Source: a virus
Strand: one strand, 5' to 3'
IMG/VR virus record: IMGVR_UViG_3300032006_000099
Span: 1 to 22,337 of that record
Length of the DNA: 22,337 bases
This document shows positions 4,310 through 12,678 of the stretch, in pieces. Position 1 is the first letter of the stretch, and the number at the start of each line of letters is the position of its first letter. The notes beneath the pieces were generated by a model that worked only from the letters and a program-made list of their open reading frames with translations, had not been told where the DNA came from and searched no databases. Both the position numbers and the translations under genes were made by a program.

Positions 4310-4430
4310 TTTTTTTATCTTCCTTTGGTTTTTCTTTATTTTTCAGAGAACATCCATAACAATAATAAACACCATTATCAACTACAGTAGCAGGCTTATC
4401 ACAATCAATACACCCCATTGGATGCGGCAT
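4302..4430 (-). CDS. Mini zinc-ribbon protein, 42 aa
   Basis: A short gene read by hand: MPHPMGCIDCDKP, then VDNGVYYCYGCSLKNK and a Lys-rich tail. Two CxxC knuckles (C7-x2-C10 and C24-x2-C27) about 13 residues apart form a minimal zinc ribbon. The start overlaps the stop of the holin-like gene (TAATG) and its 3' end overlaps the lysozyme-like gene by 8 bases, so it fits the operon tightly. Such ribbons bind nucleic acid or protein partners. The role here is unknown; its place between a putative holin and a putative endolysin is odd and may be incidental. Confidence 0.65.
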   Translation of the reverse strand: MPHPMGCIDCDKPATVVDNGVYYCYGCSLKNKEKPKEDKKNG

Positions 4431-5971: not shown

Positions 5972-6021
5972 GGAAATGATAGTAGCGTAGCAAGCAACTG
6001 ACACTATCATTTCCTTTTTTT
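5972..6021 (+). terminator. Strong intrinsic terminator
   Basis: GGAAATGATAGT (5972-5983) pairs perfectly over 12 bases with ACTATCATTTCC (6003-6014) and is followed at once by seven T. It closes the transcription unit of the 126-aa gene and is the clearest terminator in the window. Confidence 0.9.
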
Positions 6022-6348: not shown

Positions 6349-6520
6349 GAGTAAATTAAACGATCCCAAATTGTACCAAGGGATAAATAAAAAGAGTGCA
6401 AAGCAGCGATTTGCTGCAGTTTTATCAACTTATAAGTATCTATTAGATGAAGGTCGTATTAAGTATAACGGCCCTGCAGCTGCTAGATATGAAGAGTTGT
6501 TAAGACGCAAAAGATTATAA
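6335..6520 (+). CDS. Hypothetical basic helical protein, 61 aa
   Basis: Starts MSAFKSKLNDPKLYQGINK and ends YEELLRRKRL. Predominantly helical and basic, with no known motif. The start at 6335 has GAGG nine bases upstream; the longer in-frame opening at 6251 would run inside the preceding gene and gives an implausible hydrophobic leader that is just the shadow of that gene. It is the last gene before the long non-coding stretch. Confidence 0.6.
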   Translation: MSAFKSKLNDPKLYQGINKKSAKQRFAAVLSTYKYLLDEGRIKYNGPAAARYEELLRRKRL

Positions 6521-6521
6521 A
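6516..6521 (+). promoter_or_regulatory. Possible -10 element for the structured RNA
   Basis: TATAAA ends five bases before the first closing stem of the candidate RNA (6526), so initiation near 6527 would start the transcript at the base of that helix. No good -35 is visible, so this is weak. Confidence 0.25.
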
Positions 6522-6525
6522 TGAT

Positions 6526-7139
6526 TAGGGCATATTCAGCTATCTCAAGCTGTGAAGTTAATCAGACAGAGACCAGTAAGCTACAAGCAACTGCGATATC
6601 TGGGATTGTGCTGTCACGTGTAGTAACCCTACATAAGTAGACGAAGCAACCAGGCGATTATATGCCCTATAAAGAATTAAATATGGTAGGTTTTAAAACT
6701 GTTGAGCCTGATCAGCAACACATAGTTTTATAAATTCCATCCTATGAGTTATCTATAGCCCCATAAGGCGTAGAGCATAGGGTTAGTATCCAGGCTCACG
6801 AAGATAACGGCCTGGCTATTATTGCTAAATATTGTGATAATACGGGTTTAAAGACACTATACTAACACGGTTGCGAATAAGACAACGCAGTCTTATGGCG
6901 GGTATTATGGTAAAGCGGGACAAGTTCTCCCGATATGATAGCCAAGCATTAACGCAGGAAGCGTGAGAAATAGTAATATTTCATCGTTTCGCCAATCAAT
7001 GTAGAGTAATGTCTATGAGATTGCCTAGTAATAGGGAGATGTGATACTCGTGATCCGAAAGGACACCAAACCAAAGAACCGCAATTTACAGGGTAATAGT
7101 TTAAAACTACTAAGCGTTAATCCTGTGGAATACCTACCA
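6526..7139 (+). ncRNA. Candidate large structured phage RNA
   Basis: About 730 bases (6521-7248) hold no gene with a good start and ribosome-binding site, yet are dense in hairpins on the transcribed strand. Clear pairings: 6526-6535 with 6660-6669 (10 bp, perfect, enclosing a domain with CAGCT/AGCTG at 6537-6552); 6695-6701 with 6724-6730; 6790-6795 with 6810-6815 (CCAGGC/GCCTGG); 6817-6822 with 6837-6842; 6877-6883 with 6890-6896 (7 bp); 6916-6920 with 6928-6932; 6967-6972 with 6977-6982 (GTAA loop); 7004-7008 with 7045-7049, enclosing CCTA-GTAA-TAGG (7024-7035); a bulged six-pair stem capped by GAAA near 7050-7066; 7085-7092 with 7122-7129, enclosing TAGTT/AACTA. Three GNRA tetraloops are characteristic of large folded RNAs. 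Size and phage setting resemble GOLLD or ROOL RNAs, but I cannot confirm membership. Exact ends are unknown. Confidence 0.6.
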
Positions 7140-7167
7140 AAGTTTTCAATTTAGGTGTAGGATAGTG

Positions 7168-7173
7168 TATAAT
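7168..7173 (+). promoter_or_regulatory. Possible -10 element for the early operon
   Basis: A perfect TATAAT about 75 bases upstream of the first gene of the rightward operon. The region 17 bases upstream (TTCAAT, 7145-7150) matches the -35 consensus only partly. AATACCTAC occurs twice nearby (7129-7137 and 7171-7179). Confidence 0.35.
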
Positions 7174-7248
7174 ACCTACGTAAATTAATTGGTCTGACAC
7201 TACAATTATGCCTAATATTTTTCTATAACCCTGAAAAGGAGGCAGCTT

Positions 7249-7578
7249 ATGAATAAGCTAAAGGAAAGAGTACGCTGGATGCTCAAAAATTATCCAGAAA
7301 CAAAGAAGTCTGACGACAGGTTAATGCTTTATATTTGGAGAGACGATTACTCCAAGCTCATGCAAGGAAAGCCCAGAATGGGAGATGTAACAAGTTTCTT
7401 CGCAGTATTAGGTAGCAGTATGTTAACTAATTGGGAAAGCGTGACAAGAGTCAGAAGAGAACTTCAACGGAAATATCCTGAATTAAGAGATGAAGAAACA
7501 TATAAAAAGAGGCATAAAGCTGCTTCTGATTATAGAGATAGGTATAGTTCAAGATATAATTTTGAAGGGAGGCACTAA
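7249..7578 (+). CDS. Conserved-type phage protein, 109 aa, first gene of early operon
   Basis: A basic helical protein (MNKLKERVRWMLKNYPETK...). The segments NYPETKKSDDRLMLYIW and TRVRRELQRKYPELRDEETYKKR resemble a small family seen in many tailed phages upstream of replication genes, with a 'P-x-T-x-x-S-D' and an 'R-R-x-L-Q-x-x-x-P-E-L-R' signature; its function is not known to me. A strong AAAGGAGG lies six bases before ATG. It ends in a TAATG overlap with the next gene. Arg/Lys content and position are compatible with nucleic-acid binding, but this is inference. Confidence 0.7.
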   Translation: MNKLKERVRWMLKNYPETKKSDDRLMLYIWRDDYSKLMQGKPRMGDVTSFFAVLGSSMLTNWESVTRVRRELQRKYPELRDEETYKKRHKAASDYRDRYSSRYNFEGRH

Positions 7579-9172: not shown

Positions 9173-9382
9173 ATGGCTAAAGTTACAGTCATATCATACC
9201 ACAACGGTGGTATGCCTAGGGAAATGGAAGGTGGAACACCATCTGAGCTTGCTCAGGAGTTAGACCTTTCACTTCAAGGTGTTCAAATACATGTAGACAG
9301 TGGTGAGGCTAACCCCTCTCAGACACTAGCTGATGGACAATTTGTATCTTTTCAAAAGAGCAAAGTAGCATCAGGTAAGTAG
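9173..9382 (+). CDS. Ubiquitin-like / ThiS-MoaD-like beta-grasp protein
   Basis: A 69-aa small modifier candidate. The order fits a beta-grasp fold: strand-turn-strand (AKVTVISYHNGGMPREME, 2-19), helix (TPSELAQELDL, 22-32), strand (GVQIHVDS), and the hallmark C-terminal segment TLADGQFVSFQKSKVASGK, which matches the L-x-D-G-D-x-V-x-F near the end of ThiS/MoaD proteins. The chain ends Ser-Gly-Lys rather than Gly-Gly; removal of the last Lys would expose a C-terminal Gly for adenylation. GGAGG lies six bases before ATG. It is the first gene of a cassette with E2-like, JAB and E1-like genes downstream, which strongly supports the assignment. A perfect 8-bp hairpin lies within its first codons and a 9-bp stem follows the gene. 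Sequence similarity to ubiquitin itself is not expected at this length. Confidence 0.8.
   Translation: MAKVTVISYHNGGMPREMEGGTPSELAQELDLSLQGVQIHVDSGEANPSQTLADGQFVSFQKSKVASGK
9195..9214 (+). repeat. Hairpin inside the start of the Ubl gene
   Basis: CATACCAC (9195-9202) and GTGGTATG (9207-9214) form a perfect 8-bp stem with an AACG loop, beginning 22 bases after the A of the start codon. It may slow translation or protect the message, or may be coincidental in coding sequence. Confidence 0.4.
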
Positions 9383-9502: not shown

Positions 9503-11251
9503 ATGACTTACAAAATTGATAAAACCTTCCCAGATAAGTTAGGCGATATTATAGATATAAGCGGATTACCTTTTAATCATGAAGCCCCAAGCTTTAAAAA
9601 GAGATTAAAAAGAACATTTGAAAGAATCTTTAAAAAGAATGGAATTAGAAATTCTAAACTAGACAAAGATTATTGGAAGATACTATATGATATGATATCA
9701 AACCCTAATGAGACATTTGGATTAGTAGCTATAGATGGCTATGTAACAGATGTTATGGGAGATGATGATATAGCTTTGATATTTAATATGGGTATACCAA
9801 GACTCAGAGGAAGAAAAATATATACATTAGATAGAATATATGCTAGAATATCATGTAATAATCCAGATATTAAATTTTATAATTCTGGAATAGAAAATGA
9901 TGAAGTATATTTTGATTTTAAATATAAAGTTCCTGCTTGGCATCCACATATTACAAATGCTATGCCTTGCTTAGGCTCTTATGGAACAGAGCTAGGTAAA
10001 TGGAGATTAGAAGCTAATCCAATAATGTATTTAAGGACAATTCATATGTTTTTAAATACCTGGAATCGTAGATCACCATATTGGGATATAAATCATAATA
10101 CAATAGACTATAGCAGCGATAATAAGAAATATAAAGCATCTAAGCTTTTTAATGGTCTTCATTTACAGGGACAGGAAGCTAGTCATTATAATCGACAATT
10201 TATTGTAGATAATATTGATAAGATAGATAGTGGTTCTGTTGTAAATGATTCAAGTATATTAGCTCATATTCTCGGAAAATTGAAATATGTTAAAGATAGT
10301 CTCGGAGACACTATTAGAGAAAAGGTTGATAAAGACCAACTCAATGATATTCAACATATTCACCAATATTTACGAGATAGAAGAGAAAATAGACGATTAA
10401 GTAGAAATGGATTATTTTCAATAATGAAAGAAAGAGATACTAATATCTATGTACCATCTTTCTTTAAAGATAAGACATCTATATCTTCAATTGAAATAAA
10501 AAATGATAGTTTAATTAAAGATGAGGATTATTCTTTAGCATTATCAATATTACAAGCTCTAGAAGAAATAATGGAAGATATATACAAATACATAACACGT
10601 GGTAGTATGTATGAACTTGTATTTGAAGAGTCAGATTATGCAATAAGATTATATTGTCAATATTATGCTCCACTTCTTACTAAATTAAATAAGCATTGTG
10701 ATGAAATGACTAATTCAGAAAAATTCAATCAAAGAGTTACTCATGATTCGGGAGAAATTTCACAATTTGATCCAAAACTATATAAAGTAAAAAGAAAAAT
10801 GCTTACTTTAAGTAGAAATAGATGGAGAAGAATTATGAGAATGATGAAATCTTATTACGATAAAATGTTTTCAAAGGAATTTGTAAATGAAGCAATTGGA
10901 AATAGAATTTCTGAAGCTTTTAAATATACTATCAGTGAACCAACAAATAGGTGGGACGGAGTAGAGTATAGATATTTAATTGATAAAGGAAGATTCTGGT
11001 CTAGAATGTACATTGATAATGTAGATGATAATAAATTTCGAAAACTAGAAAAAATTCTTTCACCTAAATCACCTGAATCATTGAGTGATTTAATAACCTT
11101 GTATGAATCTATTAAGAAAAACCTCATTGAGCAAGAGTCTCAATATTTAATAGGTCAATACAATAACGTCATAAGGAGTCTAAAAGATTATGGCAACCAA
11201 ACTAATAATACCAAAGAAGATACACAACAAGTACACTTATCTTTTAAATAG
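9503..11251 (+). CDS. E2-like (UBC fold) conjugating enzyme with long C-terminal extension
   Basis: A 582-aa protein. Residues about 71-200 look like an E2 core: strands (FGLVAIDGYVTD, EVYFDFKYKVP), then WHPHI (146-150) in the place of the E2 'HPN' motif, then PCLG with Cys156, nine residues after His147, close to the spacing in eukaryotic E2s, and a following helix (MYLRTIHMFLNTWN) ending in SPYWD. Cys156 would carry the Ubl thioester; His149 replaces the usual Asn. An N-terminal ~70-residue basic helical region precedes it. The remaining ~380 residues are helical, charged and unlike anything I recognise; they may bring target specificity or E3-like function. Classical E2s are ~150 residues, so this is very large. 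AGGAG precedes the ATG; the end overlaps the JAB gene by 62 bases. The assignment rests on motif and gene context; the fold needs structural prediction. Confidence 0.7.
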   Translation: MTYKIDKTFPDKLGDIIDISGLPFNHEAPSFKKRLKRTFERIFKKNGIRNSKLDKDYWKILYDMISNPNETFGLVAIDGYVTDVMGDDDIALIFNMGIPRLRGRKIYTLDRIYARISCNNPDIKFYNSGIENDEVYFDFKYKVPAWHPHITNAMPCLGSYGTELGKWRLEANPIMYLRTIHMFLNTWNRRSPYWDINHNTIDYSSDNKKYKASKLFNGLHLQGQEASHYNRQFIVDNIDKIDSGSVVNDSSILAHILGKLKYVKDSLGDTIREKVDKDQLNDIQHIHQYLRDRRENRRLSRNGLFSIMKERDTNIYVPSFFKDKTSISSIEIKNDSLIKDEDYSLALSILQALEEIMEDIYKYITRGSMYELVFEESDYAIRLYCQYYAPLLTKLNKHCDEMTNSEKFNQRVTHDSGEISQFDPKLYKVKRKMLTLSRNRWRRIMRMMKSYYDKMFSKEFVNEAIGNRISEAFKYTISEPTNRWDGVEYRYLIDKGRFWSRMYIDNVDDNKFRKLEKILSPKSPESLSDLITLYESIKKNLIEQESQYLIGQYNNVIRSLKDYGNQTNNTKEDTQQVHLSFK

Positions 11252-12023
11252 ATTTAAGGACTTAGAGTGGTCTGGCCCTGCATGGTATAAGGTCAAAACA
11301 GATGAAGATGGTTTTCCTACAGAATGGAGAATCATTCATTTCCATCCATTAGATTTAGGCAGTCATGCTGCTACTGAATGGGAAGCTAAAGACTTAGCTA
11401 AAATTCTGAAGAAGACCTATGCTAATATGCCAAGCTTGAAGAAAGCTTATATGGGTTTAATCCATAGTCATAATACTATGGGAGCGTTCCTATCTGGAAC
11501 AGACACAAGCACAATCCAAGAGATGGCACCTGACGAAGGATTCTACGGCAGCTTGGTGGTCGCCAGTGCTGGCAAAGCCTTGCATGCCTTTGGATTTGGT
11601 TATAAAGATCAGTATAAATGCGCTCATTCAATAGAGGTAAAAGAAGAGAACATAGAAATTAATGTTCCTGGAATTAAACCAGAAGATGAATGGGTAACTA
11701 TAGCTGATAAGATTGAAAAGAATAAACCAACTCCTAAGAAGAATAGTCAGGTTACATTATGGAATGGTAGTAGGACACGGCATATCCCAAATGTTAATAG
11801 CATAACTGAAACGGATAAAAAGAGTGCTATACTAGATAAGCTAACCAAGGAAAAGAGAGCTCAGGCAGAAGCTATAATGATGAAAAACGATACTGCAGAA
11901 ATGAGTGATATAGCAGCTGAAGATGCTTTACAAAAACTTGGAATTAGTTTAATGGATGTATTAACTCTTATGGATGATGGATATAATTACGGATATGGAT
12001 ATGGAGGATATTATGGCTACTAA
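11190..12023 (+). CDS. JAB/JAMM metalloprotease (deconjugase or Ubl processor)
   Basis: A 277-aa protein with a complete JAMM zinc site: Glu26 (EWSG), H92-S93-H94, then exactly seven residues, Ser102, two residues, and Asp105 (IHSHNTMGAFLSGTD). This class cleaves isopeptide or peptide bonds after a Ubl C-terminal Gly; here it could trim the Ser-Gly-Lys end of the Ubl and remove it from targets. The catalytic domain covers about residues 1-150; the rest is a Lys-rich linker, a helical segment and an odd Tyr/Gly tail (YNYGYGYGGYYGY). The tail codons GGA-GGA double as the Shine-Dalgarno of the E1 gene. It starts inside the end of the E2 gene, with GGAG about 11 bases before ATG. The motif match is strong. 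Confidence 0.88.
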   Translation: MATKLIIPKKIHNKYTYLLNRFKDLEWSGPAWYKVKTDEDGFPTEWRIIHFHPLDLGSHAATEWEAKDLAKILKKTYANMPSLKKAYMGLIHSHNTMGAFLSGTDTSTIQEMAPDEGFYGSLVVASAGKALHAFGFGYKDQYKCAHSIEVKEENIEINVPGIKPEDEWVTIADKIEKNKPTPKKNSQVTLWNGSRTRHIPNVNSITETDKKSAILDKLTKEKRAQAEAIMMKNDTAEMSDIAAEDALQKLGISLMDVLTLMDDGYNYGYGYGGYYGY

Positions 12024-12678
12024 TAGATTCTTAAGAAATAAGGATTTGATTCCTCAGAGTAAACTAGACCATATCGGTCTGGTTGGATTAGGAGGTATCG
12101 GCTCACAGCTGGTACCTCTATTGTCCATTATGGGATGGAAAAAGATGACAGGATGGGATCATGATGTATTGGAAGAGCATAATTTAAGTACTACTATGTT
12201 CCCTCAAGGAGCATTAGGCAAATCAAAAGCTGAAGTAGCTGAAAATATTGCTAATCTATATTCTGTTAAGCCTGGAAATAATAAATTCTTTAAAGAATAT
12301 TATGATGAGGCTAGTCCTACATTACCAAAAATGATCACTTGTCTTGATAATATGGAAGGTAGACTTGTAGCATATAATAAATGGTTAGAACAAGGCAATA
12401 GGGAATTCTTTATTGATTTAAGGATGGGAGCTATGGCTATGGAAATCATTACCGCAACTAAGGATAATGATAACTATTTAGATACTTGGCTACCTTCTCA
12501 TGAGATAAGTGAAGAACCGTGTACAATGAAACATACAATATTTACAGCTTCTATAGTTGGAGGCTTTGGCGTAGACCAAGTCTTTAATGTAGTTGCAAAA
12601 AGACCGTATTATTCGTATATTTGGATTGGCTTAATGCCACTCGAAATGCGAACTGAAAATCTCATTATAACACACTAA
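12013..12678 (+). CDS. E1-like / ThiF-family activating enzyme
   Basis: A 221-aa Rossmann protein that would adenylate the Ubl C-terminus. Motifs: GLGGIGS nucleotide loop (25-31), WDHD acidic strand end (Asp49, Asp51), HNLSTTMF (56-63) in the place of the 'NLNRQ-x-x' segment, LGKSKAEV (69-76) with the conserved Lys, CLDNMEGR (110-117) with the conserved Asp, and EEPCTMKHTIFTASIVGG, whose Cys170 aligns with the catalytic Cys of ThiF. No CxxC zinc pairs are present. The usual Arg of NLNRQ is missing. I chose ATG 12013 over 11974 because GGAGG lies five bases before it; it then overlaps the JAB stop by 11 bases. It is shorter than bacterial ThiF/MoeB (about 245-250 residues). Function in a Ubl-E2 cascade is inferred from the cassette. 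Confidence 0.85.
   Translation: MATNRFLRNKDLIPQSKLDHIGLVGLGGIGSQLVPLLSIMGWKKMTGWDHDVLEEHNLSTTMFPQGALGKSKAEVAENIANLYSVKPGNNKFFKEYYDEASPTLPKMITCLDNMEGRLVAYNKWLEQGNREFFIDLRMGAMAMEIITATKDNDNYLDTWLPSHEISEEPCTMKHTIFTASIVGGFGVDQVFNVVAKRPYYSYIWIGLMPLEMRTENLIITH

Follow-up and report, generated by a model that had tools for sequence, protein, structure and literature searches.

Large ornate RNAs are few, and those encoded by phages have no known function. GOLLD, a large ornate noncoding phage RNA with a marine metagenomic member, has symmetric kissing loops and a variable 5' part adjoining a conserved part, and the phage RNA ROOL is likewise large, its fold being complex and multibranched (PMC12286853). 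For OLE RNA, Kretsch et al. argued for a symmetric intermolecular kissing loop from the L9.3 tetranucleotide, which alternates between palindromes, GAUC and AGCU among them (PMC12286853). The DNA analysed here (the window, that is, the whole stretch) is a 22,337-base virus record, IMGVR_UViG_3300032006_000099, whose gene products include a P22-like portal, a large terminase, a DnaB-type primase-helicase, an AAA ATPase and an HNH nuclease. The terminase shares at most about 28% identity with GenBank phages among the matches listed, and the nearest relatives of the phage are IMG/VR contigs. Our reading of the phage as marine is taken from these relatives and one genome match, not from a field of the record.

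Positions 6521-7248 lie between leftward structural genes on one side and a rightward early operon on the other, and had been characterised in a preliminary description as about 730 bases without a credible gene, carrying one large structured noncoding RNA, either of the GOLLD or ROOL class or perhaps of a new one. We found that the span divides into three structured RNAs, each an independent + strand module: alpha (6526-6669), beta (6684-7139) and gamma (7151-7215). We place the probability that it holds real, conserved and new structured RNAs at roughly 95%. The span is noncoding, conserved and phage-encoded and has a fold supported by covariation, and thus is of the general kind of a large structured phage noncoding RNA; that part of the description is strongly supported by covariation and a new class survives as an option, but the single RNA gives way to three separate ones. 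The perfect 10-bp stem over 144 bases noted earlier is indeed present (6526-6535 with 6660-6669), but as alpha, beta and gamma are found apart in homologues, it closes only the first module, alpha. The absence of a credible gene was borne out: the beta homologues share no conserved ORF, their longest stop-free stretches lie in frames that differ from one to another, and no conserved protein was found in the span, so that a coding role was rejected for either strand on ORF conservation among homologues. Folding of 6521-7248 gave a minimum free energy of -195.1 kcal/mol (z = -3.5), which none of 20 dinucleotide shuffles equalled, in agreement with the earlier claim of structure beyond random. 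Taken by itself, the window sequence gave only modest z values (-1.0 to -1.8) in local windows of 200 nt, as would be expected of chance structure in AT-rich intergenic DNA; that explanation has a negligible probability, however, being refuted by covariation of beta, alpha and gamma far above slid and shuffled controls.

Beta, the largest module (about 456 nt), was followed in homologues obtained by a local search of 161 related loci (labelled L; in the clade lists, labels joined by slashes denote one contig). It is present in seven other IMG/VR contigs, making eight carriers with the window; the seven yield six distinct sequences, or seven if the window is counted. These form clade A (the window, L085/L006/L163, L082/L162 and L008/L165), whose other members are 75-79% identical to the window, and clade B (L124/L012/L164, L011/L168, L052/L166 and L121/L167; L124 and L011 being identical across beta), with 60-62% identity. 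Exact conserved-motif scans of IMG/VR revealed no beta contigs beyond the known seven, a looser motif returned 13 more IMG/VR contigs, all unrelated, and the beta motif was absent from 84,980 species genomes. In addition, a covariance model of the P4-P5 domain applied to 104 loci detected no divergent copy, and a DNA similarity search of 50,697 phage and 72,556 plasmid records gave just one 32-nt chance match.

When the homologues were examined for covariation, as had been proposed in the preliminary description, covariation was present. With alignments built from sequence only, a structure derived from clade A alone made 131 of 161 distinct cells canonical in clade B, versus 59-72 when partners were slid, and 16 of the 21 cells changed on both sides still paired. 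Conversely, a structure from clade B alone made 174 of 247 cells canonical in clade A (87-108 when slid), with pairing in 49 of the 70 cells that had changed on both sides. In the joint alignment, 98.1% of the cells of 120 pairs were canonical versus 37-44% when slid, 38 pairs had double-sided changes, and none of 500 shuffles reached the covariation score; because the joint structure was derived from those very sequences, the cross-clade test provides the cleaner evidence. With RNAalifold by itself, 112 pairs were obtained, 33 of them double-changed, and the sense strand folded more stably than the antisense strand in every homologue.

The beta fold is closed by stem P1 (6684-6691/7132-7139), which covaries from UGGUAGGU/ACCUACCA to UAGUGGGU/ACCCACUA. 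Hairpin P2 (6695-6729) carries a self-complementary loop, GAUC at 6710-6713, which is a candidate symmetric kissing loop. P3 (6734-6738/7127-7131) encloses a multibranch domain spanning 6734-7131 and covaries from AUUCC/GGAAU to ACUCA/UGAGU or AUCCA/UGGGU in clade B. The P5 domain (6782-6866), supported by covariation and the covariance model, is formed by GUUAGUAU/AUACUAAC in the window and GUAAUCAU/AUGAUUAC in others, and contains a nearly invariant hairpin (6817-6842, UAUUAUUGCUAAAUAUUGUGAUAAUA). A long-range helix within 6869-7086 (6869-6874/7081-7086) bridges more than 200 nt and occurs in four complementary versions, GGUUGC/GCAAUU, GGUGAG/CUCACU, GGGCAG/CUGUCU and GGUCAG/CUGACU. A second nearly invariant hairpin lies at 6993-7023 (GUAGAGUAA..UCUA), and the near-invariance of both hairpins suggests contacts or binding sites. 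As to the three GNRA tetraloops claimed earlier, GUAA (6973-6976, in the hairpin 6967-6982) is a true tetraloop, replaced by GAGA in clade B; GAAA (7057-7060), in the hairpin UCC-GAAA-GGA (7054-7063; CCC/GGG, CUC/GAG or GGC/GCC in homologues), is a true tetraloop in clade A but a GAUAA pentaloop in clade B; and the second GTAA (7006-7009) falls in a 6-nt loop and forms no tetraloop.

Rfam searches gave no match to the window up to an E value of 10, only chance-level matches at gathering and permissive thresholds for the window, four beta homologues and eight relatives, and no plausible family for the beta homologues. The GOLLD model, RF02032, matched none of seven records (the window and six homologous ones) at E ≤ 10, with its controls matching only below the cut-off, and the ROOL model, RF03087, likewise matched none of the seven, nor its controls in the same search, so that only recognisable members of the two families are excluded. 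The proposed assignment to the GOLLD or ROOL class thus found no support, and RF01998, cited there as the GOLLD accession, actually belongs to group-II-D1D4-1, a group II fragment, whose model was also negative. The OLE model gave no match in all-family scans of the window and homologues, and no tRNA was found in the window. Text searches of open-access papers, covering titles and abstracts and, beyond these, PMC12286853, brought up no account that we recognised as describing this RNA.

Likenesses of construction to these families were observed nevertheless. Like GOLLD, the window RNAs are large, ornate, noncoding and phage-encoded, with a variable 5' part, a conserved part and a kissing-loop candidate; unlike GOLLD, many members of which exceed 800 nt, beta is about half that size, alpha and beta belong to different families and occur as modules that can be separated, and the tRNA gene that often, not always, lies near or inside GOLLD does not occur in the window. 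Beta shares with ROOL the large size, the phage origin and the complex multibranched fold, but has about 456 nt versus the 574 positions of the model, and the sequences are unrelated as far as tested. With OLE it shares a palindromic loop switch from GAUC to AGCU, a resemblance of mode rather than membership that is based on one event, whereas beta is phage-encoded and has no Rfam match. Beta founds a new class of large phage RNA, which is set apart from the known ornate phage RNAs by model searches with weak or silent controls and probably works as they do. Such a compact class with covariation support allows an independent check on whether large phage RNAs commonly self-assemble. The large multibranched fold, the GNRA loops and the two nearly invariant hairpins might also be those of a ribozyme or of a self-splicing intron remnant, but we consider this unlikely, since no Rfam intron or ribozyme family, including the group I and group II intron cores in the window, matched at E values up to 10, RF01998 was negative, and beta neither interrupts a gene nor contains an intron-encoded protein.

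A self-associating, stand-alone RNA acting in the manner of GOLLD and ROOL is the best-supported guess for beta, based on the P2 palindrome switch, the occurrence in a phage, the GNRA loops and a fold that is large and closed; we give it slightly less than an even chance. In L124 and L011, four consecutive sites of the P2 loop have changed from GAUC to AGCU, which is again self-complementary, and no further copy of GAUC occurs in L082, L008, L052 and L121. However, the switch represents a single event in evolution and may be coincidental, and a wobble partner elsewhere in the beta molecule is possible. The shorter length of beta compared with GOLLD and the ROOL model also speaks against this reading. 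Under the self-association reading, beta would be transcribed with the early unit, accumulate as a stand-alone RNA and fold compactly, held by GNRA contacts; it would then self-associate by way of the palindrome in the P2 loop, in the manner of GOLLD, ROOL and OLE, and may provide the infection with a scaffold or compartment made of RNA. Beta has an elaborate + strand fold, is non-coding and patchily present, and is conserved between phages whose neighbouring proteins have strongly diverged. The terminases encoded by beta-bearing contigs in clades A and B (L006, L008, L011, L012 and L052) are 92-94% identical to that of the window, the 582-aa early protein beside beta shares 49% (L085) or 26-27% (L124, L121) identity with its window counterpart, and beta itself shares 60-79%; these figures argue that the beta RNA has its own history.

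Alpha has about 145 nt in the window (6526-6669, closed by 6526-6535/6660-6669) and up to about 177 nt in relatives, with the conserved motifs GAAGUUAA.CA.ACAG, UGGGAAGUGU and GUGAAG.AGCC..GCGA. Its homologues, in L139 and the groups L191, L205, L204 and L132/L126, are all without beta, and it is absent from the beta-bearing homologues. Six distinct sequences support 46 consensus pairs, with 90% of cells canonical versus 36-40% when slid and double-sided changes in 16 pairs; for alpha, as for gamma, the structure was derived from the same alignment as was used for the counts. Alpha may be a second, smaller stand-alone RNA. In L085, a different hairpin domain closed by TAGGTTTGT/ACAAACCTA (about 4335-4410, just 5' of beta) takes the place of alpha.

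Gamma (7151-7215, +) comprises P1 (7151-7156/7210-7215), P2 (7157-7161/7175-7179) and a loop-loop helix (7163-7167/7198-7202) that covaries as UAGUG/CACUA in the window, ACUGU/ACAGU and AGUGU/ACACU. Its profile matches 19 loci, and in eight distinct sequences the 18 nested pairs were 96% canonical versus 24-40% when slid. It occurs in clade A and, without beta, in L139, L097/L099, L092 and L200. Its 3' end lies about 20-25 nt before the Shine-Dalgarno sequence, an AAGGAGG upstream of the first ORF of the rightward early operon (7249-7578, +; no match in Pfam or PHROGs), and it stays ahead of the operon in relatives that lack beta. Three-way-junction riboswitches with loop-loop contacts are exemplified by the purine riboswitch. 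Gamma resembles this type in its P1, two hairpins, loop-loop helix and placement before an operon, but differs in having no Rfam match. As a three-way junction with kissing hairpins directly 5' of a Shine-Dalgarno sequence, gamma is probably a cis-acting leader controlling the operon just downstream.

Alternatively, beta might form, together with alpha and gamma, one giant 5' leader that influences the early operon in cis, for instance as a composite riboswitch or an element controlling translation. All three modules lie 5' of the operon on the same strand, with gamma keeping its place before the Shine-Dalgarno sequence, and in L121 the ATG of a short ORF lies within about 30 nt 3' of beta; the pre-operon position also suits a precursor processed for another use. 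However, alpha and beta have each been lost or replaced in relatives that retain the operon, the genes that follow beta differ between clades A and B, and beta is closed by its own P1, apart from gamma, and we therefore regard a giant leader as rather unlikely. A promoter scan called no sigma-70 promoter near 6516-6521, where a -10-like hexamer before the 5' helix had been proposed, and a simple scan found no terminator between alpha and the operon. The upstream unit ends, 3' of a 126-aa gene, in a strong hairpin resembling an intrinsic terminator by sequence and fold (5972-6021, +; GGAAATGATAGT/ACTATCATTTCC followed by seven T), which the terminator scan overlooked because its loop is long.

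In relatives, the slot from the 126-aa gene to the early operon extends over as much as 1.4 kb without a + strand ORF of at least 45 codons. One module, M2 (about 190 nt; closing stem UUGGCACUCA/UGAGUGCCAA; 31 pairs, 96% canonical), recurs there in L139 (3622-3797), L097 (4371-4554), L092 (2003-2184), L058, L200, L049, L051 and L024; its two strands fold equally well, so that either orientation is admissible, and it had no Rfam match where scanned. Shorter blocks, for which conservation is the sole claim, are common to the slots of L126 and L092, of L024 and L132, and of L024 and L126. Since this slot is occupied by other conserved modules in related phages, it resembles an island of exchangeable RNAs; in the window, three structured RNAs, each with its own inheritance, stand there in tandem at the start of the rightward early operon. 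Whole-module exchange in one slot suggests that RNA "genes" can act like phage accessory protein genes, and such exchangeable structured-RNA modules are currently missed entirely by Rfam-based annotation. A fuller picture, in which an exchangeable island of unrelated structured RNAs includes, in beta, a third natural phage RNA-only homo-oligomer after GOLLD and ROOL, with the palindromic P2 loop as one of its bridges, strikes us as doubtful. A hypervariable slot in an early position, with several unrelated structured modules exchanged among close relatives, would also be expected if the RNAs acted in trans as decoys or inhibitors directed against RNA-processing enzymes or the defences of the host, and if selection drove their exchange as in an island of anti-defence genes; as Rfam revealed no likeness to a known RNA target, we hold this to be improbable.

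Several minor features were also observed. Conserved noncoding blocks M3-M6 (L126 2021-2284, L132 3645-4168 and L024 3998-4448) occur across otherwise different slots and look like further RNA modules with closing stems. Segments of L082 (6001-6085) and L087 (105-190) resemble a portion of the L024 slot (E = 7e-8); the L082 block lies directly 5' of the AAA_24 gene, a place where the gap in the window measures just 12 bases, so that a module looks to have moved. One operon of the window encodes a 69-aa protein (9173-9382), possibly ubiquitin-like as judged by eye, together with a weak Prok-JAB-like protein (11190-12023) and a ThiF/E1-like protein (11974-12678), a set that recalls PRTRC or Cap2/Cap3-type modules, here in a phage; none of the three reached the curated PRTRC cut-off. 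Among GTDB genomes, the single contig with a close terminase (91%), L207, is binned in a Euryarchaeota MAG; a DnaB-type helicase argues for a bacterial host, suggesting that this bin may be mixed.
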